Source: Nitrososphaera sp. (lineage in GTDB: Archaea; Thermoproteota; Nitrososphaeria; Nitrososphaerales; Nitrososphaeraceae). Taken from it: DNA of 64,000 nucleotides. Of the stretch, positions 11,765 through 40,952 are shown one piece after another; the first letter of the stretch is position 1; every line of letters starts with the position of its first letter. Where the stretch lies: NCBI GenBank assembly GCA_039938515.1, contig JBDUUL010000010.1:124001-188000 (forward strand). The letters run 5' to 3'. The notes under the pieces are model-generated. The model worked only from the letters and a program-made list of their open reading frames with translations, ran no database searches and was not told the DNA's origin. The translations under genes and the position numbers were made by a program.

Positions 11765-11903
11765 TCGGTTGCCGGCTCTCGATTATGTTCTGCGCGCTGC
11801 CTGCTGGCAGGGAATTCTGCAGATAAAGCCTGAGCCGGAAACGCTATAACGTATAAAAGTAGGTTGCCGAGAGCATCAACTGGGCGGATGTGGCAGAGTG
11901 GTC

Positions 11904-11932
11904 TTCTCTGGCGTTCAGCCTCTGAACACAAT
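11904..11932 (+). other. Non-canonical tRNA intron in the D-loop (boundaries approximate)
   Basis: About 29 extra bases lie between the GGTC of the D-loop and the AATGC that closes the D-stem. They contain a six-pair hairpin (GTTCAG, loop CCT, CTGAAC). Removing them gives an ordinary class II D-arm. The exact splice points could move by a few bases, as the bulge-helix-bulge was not resolved by hand. Confidence 0.65.
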
Positions 11933-11949
11933 AATGCGTCGGCCTTGAG

Positions 11950-11964
11950 TCAAGCCGGCCGGTA
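11950..11964 (+). other. tRNA intron at the canonical 37/38 position
   Basis: Fifteen GC-rich bases follow G37 and precede A38 and the 3' half of the anticodon stem. The 37/38 location is the standard archaeal tRNA intron site. The parts flanking it can pair with the CCGGCC inside it, as expected of a splicing-endonuclease substrate. Confidence 0.7.
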
Positions 11965-12016
11965 AGCCGATTCGCCTTCGGGCGATCAGGAGTTCGAATC
12001 TCCTCATCCGCGCCAT

Positions 12017-13171
12017 CTATTCTTCCTCAGAGCCGGCCGCTACGTCCTGAGACGCCTCGCCTGGACTTCCCACAGCCCGACGCGCGGTCTCGCGGTGCTT
12101 TCTATCGTCAACCTTCTGACCGTGCTGCTGTTTGATGCGACGGTCGAGCCTCGTCACTAGCTCCTTTGAGGCGCTTATGGGATCATAGCCGACGGCCTTT
12201 GCATCAATGACACCGCGCGATGTGATTACGCGGGTGCGAAGAGAGTACTTCCGCGTCTTGTGCTTGTCGGCATAAACAATGACCGAGGTTATGTCTCCAA
12301 GCCTGCCCTGAATCTTTTTGATAAACTTGGTCATCTGGTCGTTAATCTCGGCGCGGTCGGCCTCGTCTGGAAGGTGCGCTATGTGTATCGTCGGCCCGCC
12401 TTTTTTCGGAAGCACGTATTCCAGAGCATCCTTGGGAGTCACGATGCCCATAGGTCTGCCGCCTTCGCCGACTATTATGACCTCCTCGTTTTTCCTAAAG
12501 TGCTCCACCAGGCTGTTCAGCTGGGTTCCGCGTTCGGCTGACGCGGCTCTTCTCATGATGTCCCTTGCCTTGACACTGCTAATCGACGCGGTTCCACCGG
12601 AGATTGCCGCGGATTTGCTGGTGCGCTCGCGGGGAGTTGTCATCATGATGGCACCGATATCCAAGATGCCGACGGTTCCTACCAGTATACCTTTTGAATT
12701 TATCACAGGAAGCCGGGAAATGTTGTACCTCCTCAGCTTGGAAACCGCGTCTGAAAGCGTGGTCTTTTCGTCTATTACAATGGCCCCCGACATTATCTGG
12801 TCAACCGTTGCGTGGCCAAAATCCGAAGTCAGCGTGAGGTCCGTTTCGCTGACGATGCCGACCAGCTTGCGGTTCTCAACCACCGGAAGCGCCCTGTTGC
12901 CGGAGCTTATGATCATCTGGGCAGCCTTTTCCACGTCCTCGCCTGGGCTCAGCGTCGCCGTGTTTGTCACGTAACCCTTGAGTTTTGACGAAGGCTGCGC
13001 AGACGATGAAAGAAGGCTCTTGGCAAATATCATGCCGACATATTCGCTCTTTGCGTCTAAGACAGGAATCTGGTTTATCGACTTGTCGTTCATTAGATTG
13101 AATGCTCTTGCAACGGTGTCGTCCTCGGACAGCGAAACAACATTTCGCGACATTGCCTCCGAAACTTGCAA
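12017..13171 (-). CDS. Four-CBS-domain protein with C-terminal HPF/S30AE-like domain
   Basis: About 384 residues from the TTG at 13171, which follows a GGGGTGG ribosome-binding-like site; a TTG at 13198 would add nine. Four CBS repeats cover about residues 1-265 (VSEAMSRNVVSLSEDDTVA, then TDLTLTSDFGHATVDQIM, GILDIGAIM and VTPKDALEYVLP regions). CBS pairs bind adenine nucleotides. Residues about 270-365 (ITSVIVYADKHKTRKYSLRT...ASKELVTRLDRRIKQQHG) resemble the ribosome-hibernation factor fold HPF/S30AE. This suggests an energy-sensing ribosome-associated factor, an inference from domain order. Its stop is one base from the 3' end of the tRNA-Ser gene. Confidence 0.75.
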   Translation of the reverse strand: MQVSEAMSRNVVSLSEDDTVARAFNLMNDKSINQIPVLDAKSEYVGMIFAKSLLSSSAQPSSKLKGYVTNTATLSPGEDVEKAAQMIISSGNRALPVVENRKLVGIVSETDLTLTSDFGHATVDQIMSGAIVIDEKTTLSDAVSKLRRYNISRLPVINSKGILVGTVGILDIGAIMMTTPRERTSKSAAISGGTASISSVKARDIMRRAASAERGTQLNSLVEHFRKNEEVIIVGEGGRPMGIVTPKDALEYVLPKKGGPTIHIAHLPDEADRAEINDQMTKFIKKIQGRLGDITSVIVYADKHKTRKYSLRTRVITSRGVIDAKAVGYDPISASKELVTRLDRRIKQQHGQKVDDRKHRETARRAVGSPGEASQDVAAGSEEE

Positions 13172-13267
13172 ATTGGCTAAACCACCCCTTGCTATCAATT
13201 AAAATGTTGTTGTTTCAAGTTACGTTATAATGATCCAACGTGATGGATTTGGCCAAAGGATTCCTTT

Positions 13268-40805: not shown

Positions 40806-40880
40806 GGGCGGCTGGTCTAGACTGGTTATGATACCGCTCTTACACAGCGGTGGTCGAGTGTTCAAATCACTCGCCGCCCA
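40806..40880 (+). tRNA. tRNA-Val(UAC)
   Basis: The acceptor stem is GGGCGGC (40806-40812) with GCCGCCC (40873-40879), followed by A73. The anticodon stem is CCGCT with AGCGG and the seven-base loop CTTACAC gives anticodon TAC (Val). The T-arm is GAGTG-TTCAAAT-CACTC. No intron and no encoded CCA (ACTTTTG follows), unlike the tRNA-Ser in this window. Confidence 0.93.
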
Positions 40881-40952
40881 CTTTTGAAACTCTCGCAGAG
40901 ATCCTTATTATAGTGAGATTGCGTCATCCGTACTGTAATCGGGAGATAACCG

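Follow-up and report, generated by a model that had tools for sequence, protein, structure and literature searches.

A tRNA-Ser(UGA) gene of Nitrososphaera with two short introns, in the D-loop and at position 37/38

The stretch of Nitrososphaera sp. DNA analysed here (64,000 nucleotides, hereafter the window) contains, at 11884-12012 on the forward strand, a class II tRNA-Ser(UGA) gene with two short introns. We are highly confident that this is a functional single-copy gene whose introns are of the protein-spliced bulge-helix-bulge (BHB) type; from its sequence and that of its relatives we infer transcription, both cuts and their exact nucleotides, ligation of the exons and the alpha2beta2 assembly of the endonuclease. 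A sequence-only reading of the window had proposed a class II tRNA-Ser(UGA) interrupted twice, in the D-loop and at 37/38. This proposal is supported by the fold of the spliced product, by 29 gene copies in the same family, by relatives lacking each of the inserts and by a two-subunit EndA splicing endonuclease whose loop motif is tied to broad specificity. The 15 nt proposed for the 37/38 insert are found again, and the about 29 nt proposed for the D-loop agree with the 30 nt (28-30 nt) determined here.

The locus and its recognition by gene finders

The gene spans 129 nt and consists of three exons. Exon 1 (11884-11902), which is near-invariant in the 29 family copies, comprises the 5' strand of the acceptor stem, U8-G9, the 5' strand of the D-stem and the D-loop up to U20. 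It is followed by the D-loop intron at position 20/21 (11903-11932), delimited by relatives and covariation. Exon 2 (11933-11949) holds A21, the 3' strand of the D-stem, the 5' strand of the anticodon stem and the anticodon loop up to G37, including the anticodon TGA (11946-11948; UGA, reading the serine codon UCA), which ARAGORN reports from the spliced sequence. The canonical 37/38 intron (11950-11964) is defined by pairing and by its clean absence from two congeners. Exon 3 (11965-12012) contributes A38, the 3' strand of the anticodon stem, a 5-bp variable arm, the T arm, the 3' strand of the acceptor stem and the discriminator G. Exons 2 and 3 were assigned by Infernal, ARAGORN and the fold. 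By inspection of the sequence, a candidate archaeal TATA box (TATAAA, 11852-11857, forward strand) lies 27-32 nt upstream, and a CCA (12013-12015, forward strand) is encoded directly 3' of the gene; the latter is possibly there by chance, since it is not conserved among relatives. A gene for a CBS-domain protein with three CBS matches (12017-13198, reverse strand) is convergent with the tRNA gene, its stop lying one base beyond the encoded CCA.

Removal of both inserts restores a standard tRNA, as judged by the ARAGORN call and by the minimum-energy fold, which is an 84-nt class II cloverleaf with a 7-bp acceptor stem, D-stem, anticodon stem, 5-bp variable stem and 5-bp T-stem. ARAGORN names tRNA-Ser(tga) only once both inserts are removed. 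With one or both of them retained it finds no gene or, if introns are allowed, calls SeC(tca), Leu(gag) or Pro(cgg). Single-intron readings were rejected on these grounds, as ARAGORN then returns nothing or miscalls Leu or Pro, and the alternative named at the outset, that one intron might explain the sequence better, fails in this test.

The unspliced locus scores 41.9 bits against the Rfam tRNA model in a narrow, permissive Infernal scan (gathering threshold 29); in the alignment, the model leaves 31 bases of the D-loop and 18 of the anticodon loop unaccounted for. The gene is listed neither by default ARAGORN nor by a genome-wide Rfam search. A window-wide Rfam scan at the gathering threshold listed nothing, including an ordinary tRNA-Val at 40806, and is therefore weak evidence. 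This tRNA-Val(UAC) (40806-40881, forward strand) is found by ARAGORN and scores 57.7 bits in the genome-wide Rfam search. The expectation that automated tools may miss or misread the tRNA-Ser(UGA) gene was thus borne out by the omissions of default ARAGORN and the Rfam scans and by the miscalls of ARAGORN, and the case shows that default gene finders overlook or misname doubly interrupted tRNAs.

Relatives, splice-site structure and alternative readings

A search of 61 genomes with the spliced sequence yielded 29 full gene copies from the same family, the window's own included. Their exons are near-identical; the D-loop inserts measure 19-37 nt and are 29 different sequences, and the 37/38 inserts range from 0 to 42 nt. 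Two congeners (L009, L010) are without the 37/38 insert: in them CUUGAG is followed directly by AG(C/U)CGA, as predicted for the spliced product.

Order-wide sequence patterns were run on 400 genomes; these patterns are strict, so a missing match does not mean a missing gene. They detect the D-loop insert in 60 of the 70 genomes of the family; within the same strictness, no genome of the family yields a D-loop without interruption, and most of the remaining 10 are incomplete assemblies. Nine genomes of other families (f4, f11, f13, f14 and f17) carry an insert at this D-loop site, and 37 (f2, f4, f6, f10 and f13) have an uninterrupted D-loop. Families f4 and f13 hold both states; the genomes of f9 match neither of the strict D-loop patterns. 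Absence from some orthologous genes is therefore true of the D-loop and the 37/38 inserts alike. With 60 cases found and no loss seen, the family can be regarded as effectively fixed for the D-loop intron. The view that D-loop introns are uncommon holds in general, but not in this family, where the insert is the rule, and position 20/21 is a published site (PMC4090602). A fixed D-loop intron as against at least one clean loss at 37/38 might hint at a benefit from the D-loop intron or from cutting it out, for instance in the timing of D-arm folding or modification; we consider this improbable. Dozens of genomes in which each intron is present or absent at one site form a natural series for intron gain and loss in Nitrososphaerales.

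Concerning the structure of the D-loop splice site, the bases after the first C of the insert pair with the bases before a conserved CA(C/U/A)A to form an inner helix, here UUC (11904-11906) with GAA (11924-11926). Over its first four positions in the 29 copies, 108 of 116 pairs form in the true register as compared to 49-85 when one strand is slid by 1-3 bases, and the same positions are occupied by U-A, C-G and U-G pairs, and outside the family also by A-U. The central helix joins G15, U16 and G18 (11898-11900) to CAC (11927-11929). Of its pairs with C-A-C/U, G18-C and U16-A are present in 29/29 copies and G15-C/U in 25/29, and all seven inserts examined from other families retain the helix. 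At its fourth position every relative has the mismatch A14.A, and the motif therefore has to be called relaxed: three of four central pairs, plus a covarying inner helix. The motif at 37/38 is relaxed as well, with an imperfect central helix in which C32-G pairs in 25/25 copies and U33-A/G in 24/25, pairing being weaker further in. These assignments rest on comparative pairing, which we take as a better test than folding energy. At its free-energy minimum (-54.5 kcal/mol), the unspliced precursor has neither the D-stem nor either splice motif, and forcing the tRNA core gives -49.4 kcal/mol; the motif must consequently form on nascent or protein-bound RNA. A pairing of G19 and U20 with the intron, seen in the core-constrained fold, was rejected, as relatives with A20 break it and keep the G15-U16-G18 helix.

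The D-loop motif has three-base bulges, G19-U20-C on the 5' side and A-U-A on the 3' side. Archaeal EndA usually cuts after the second bulge base, which places the end of exon 1 at U20 and the start of exon 2 at A21. Most likely, then, the D-loop intron is 30 nt long and located at 20/21, with an uncertainty of 1-2 nt. A variant of this explanation, not a competitor to it, has the same two introns with the D-loop cut displaced by 1-2 nt, so that the mature D-loop would contain GGUUAAUGC or GGUCUAAUGC and the intron would measure 29 or 28 nt. It would fit the C after U20, the first intron base, which is invariant (29/29), and the resulting D-loops correspond to those of uninterrupted relatives (GGUUAAUGC in f10, GGUCUAUUGC in f4). 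Bulges cut after their second base, on the other hand, give GU^C and AU^A and hence 30 nt, and the strict motif in the tRNA-Ser(CGA) gene of the same genome has the same AU^A. We regard a shifted cut as possible but somewhat doubtful.

More fundamentally, the D-loop insert could be retained as an enlarged D-arm of the mature tRNA and be no intron at all. Its occurrence in all genomes of the family that yielded the gene would suit such a role, as would the ability of most insert copies to fold into a hairpin. Against this stand the free variation of its length and sequence beside near-invariant exons, its BHB geometry with covariation, the empty site in other families, including the sister genera of f4 and f13, and the fact that ARAGORN recognises a tRNA only when the D-loop insert is taken out; retention is thus very unlikely. 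Even more remote is a pseudogene or decayed, unexpressed copy. Although the oversights and miscalls of automated tools might point that way, all stems are intact, the exons are near-identical across the 29 family copies, TATAAA lies at 27-32 nt upstream, and the gene is the sole one for Ser(UGA) found in the genome. A split or permuted gene is ruled out by the arrangement of the three exons, which follow one another in the usual order over 129 nt, and a group I intron by inserts of only 30 and 15 nt; an Rfam scan of the locus found no match to group I or II intron families around the gene.

With two BHB introns as the preferred reading, the precursor would form a D-loop motif made up of a 5' bulge G19-U20^C, the inner helix UUC/GAA, the central helix G15-U16-G18/CAC and a 3' bulge A-U^A21, together with a relaxed motif AG^U ... 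UA^A at 37/38. A heteromeric EndA of catalytic and structural subunits would cleave at both sites, and RtcB would ligate the exons to an 84-nt class II tRNA reading UCA.

Splicing enzymes and further tRNA genes of the genome

Two EndA paralogues of 181 and 199 aa are encoded in the genome, both matching solved EndA chains, and there is one RtcB ligase. Residues 6-180 of the 181-aa protein match the Aeropyrum pernix EndA chain 3P1Z_B at 2e-45. It keeps the catalytic His (HAPF), and its K-P-K aligns with K44-P45-R46 of A. pernix, in agreement with the motif in which P/V and K/R come after the loop lysine. In the A. pernix enzyme, these loop residues have been tied to broad specificity (PMC12397907; PMC6379350). 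The 199-aa paralogue is without the catalytic His, and its sequence fits a structural subunit. According to reviews, Thaumarchaeota have alpha2beta2 EndA enzymes (PMC4090602; PMC3218864). By EndA sequence, the nearest named records, at about 70% identity, come from Nitrososphaera MAGs.

A similarity search of the genome found no second Ser(UGA) gene. As the sole one found, the gene should be essential, and its tRNA can mature only via a cut in the D-loop and a cut in the anticodon loop.

The tRNA inventory of the genome was compiled region by region. Its tRNA-Ser(CGA) gene (L085) contains an 18-nt D-loop insert with a strict BHB motif, read from the sequence as UAGG/CCUA with UA^A and AU^A, and a 20-nt insert at 37/38; without both, default ARAGORN calls Ser(cga). 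Five tRNA-Phe(GAA) genes (L072, L074, L077, L078, L079) each carry a non-canonical anticodon-stem insert, the sequences of which are all different. Several tRNA-Phe copies are unusual for an archaeon, and one or two copies match the same pattern in relatives. Further apparent non-canonical inserts were read by eye in Asn(GUU) near 25/26 (L076), in the anticodon stem of Pro(GGG) (L073) and in Pro(UGG) near position 8-9 (L084). Two divergent, low-scoring tRNA-like sequences, one Asp GUC-like (L083) and one Glu UUC-like (L086), are possibly pseudogenes. In a genome of another family (G045), a Ser(CGA)-like tRNA (L045) has a long insert just 5' of the anticodon, in or near 31/32.

Comparison with known archaeal tRNA introns

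The non-canonical intron sites listed in the literature include position 20/21, and combinations of a non-canonical intron with one at 37/38 have been described (PMC4090602). In the work on tRNAscan-SE 2.0, 107 non-canonical introns were reported in Thaumarchaeota, and these served to train a model of the program (PMC8450103). In the open-access papers searched, we found no report on exactly this tRNA-Ser(UGA) gene.

The D-loop insert resembles the archaeal non-canonical BHB introns at 20/21 (PMC4090602; PMC8450103) in being short, in having BHB splice sites, in the company of a 37/38 intron and in the two-subunit EndA of its genome. No difference of kind from these introns was found; the sole, mildly unusual point is that none of the family genomes with a detected gene is without the insert. 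The second insert is like canonical archaeal 37/38 introns, with 15 nt after G37 and relaxed BHB pairing, and differs from them in nothing notable; it is lost cleanly in the two congeners. Concerning the endonuclease, the 181-aa subunit is like that of the (alpha beta)2 EndA of A. pernix with its Crenarchaea-specific loop (3P1Z, 3AJV; PMC6379350, PMC12397907), with which it aligns over nearly its full length and shares the catalytic His and K-P-(R/K), whereas the structural subunit shows no more than a remote resemblance; the likeness is one of sequence. The introns of this tRNA-Ser(UGA) gene are of an already known kind of archaeal tRNA intron and a well-supported further example of it, which leaves the picture of archaeal tRNA splicing unchanged.
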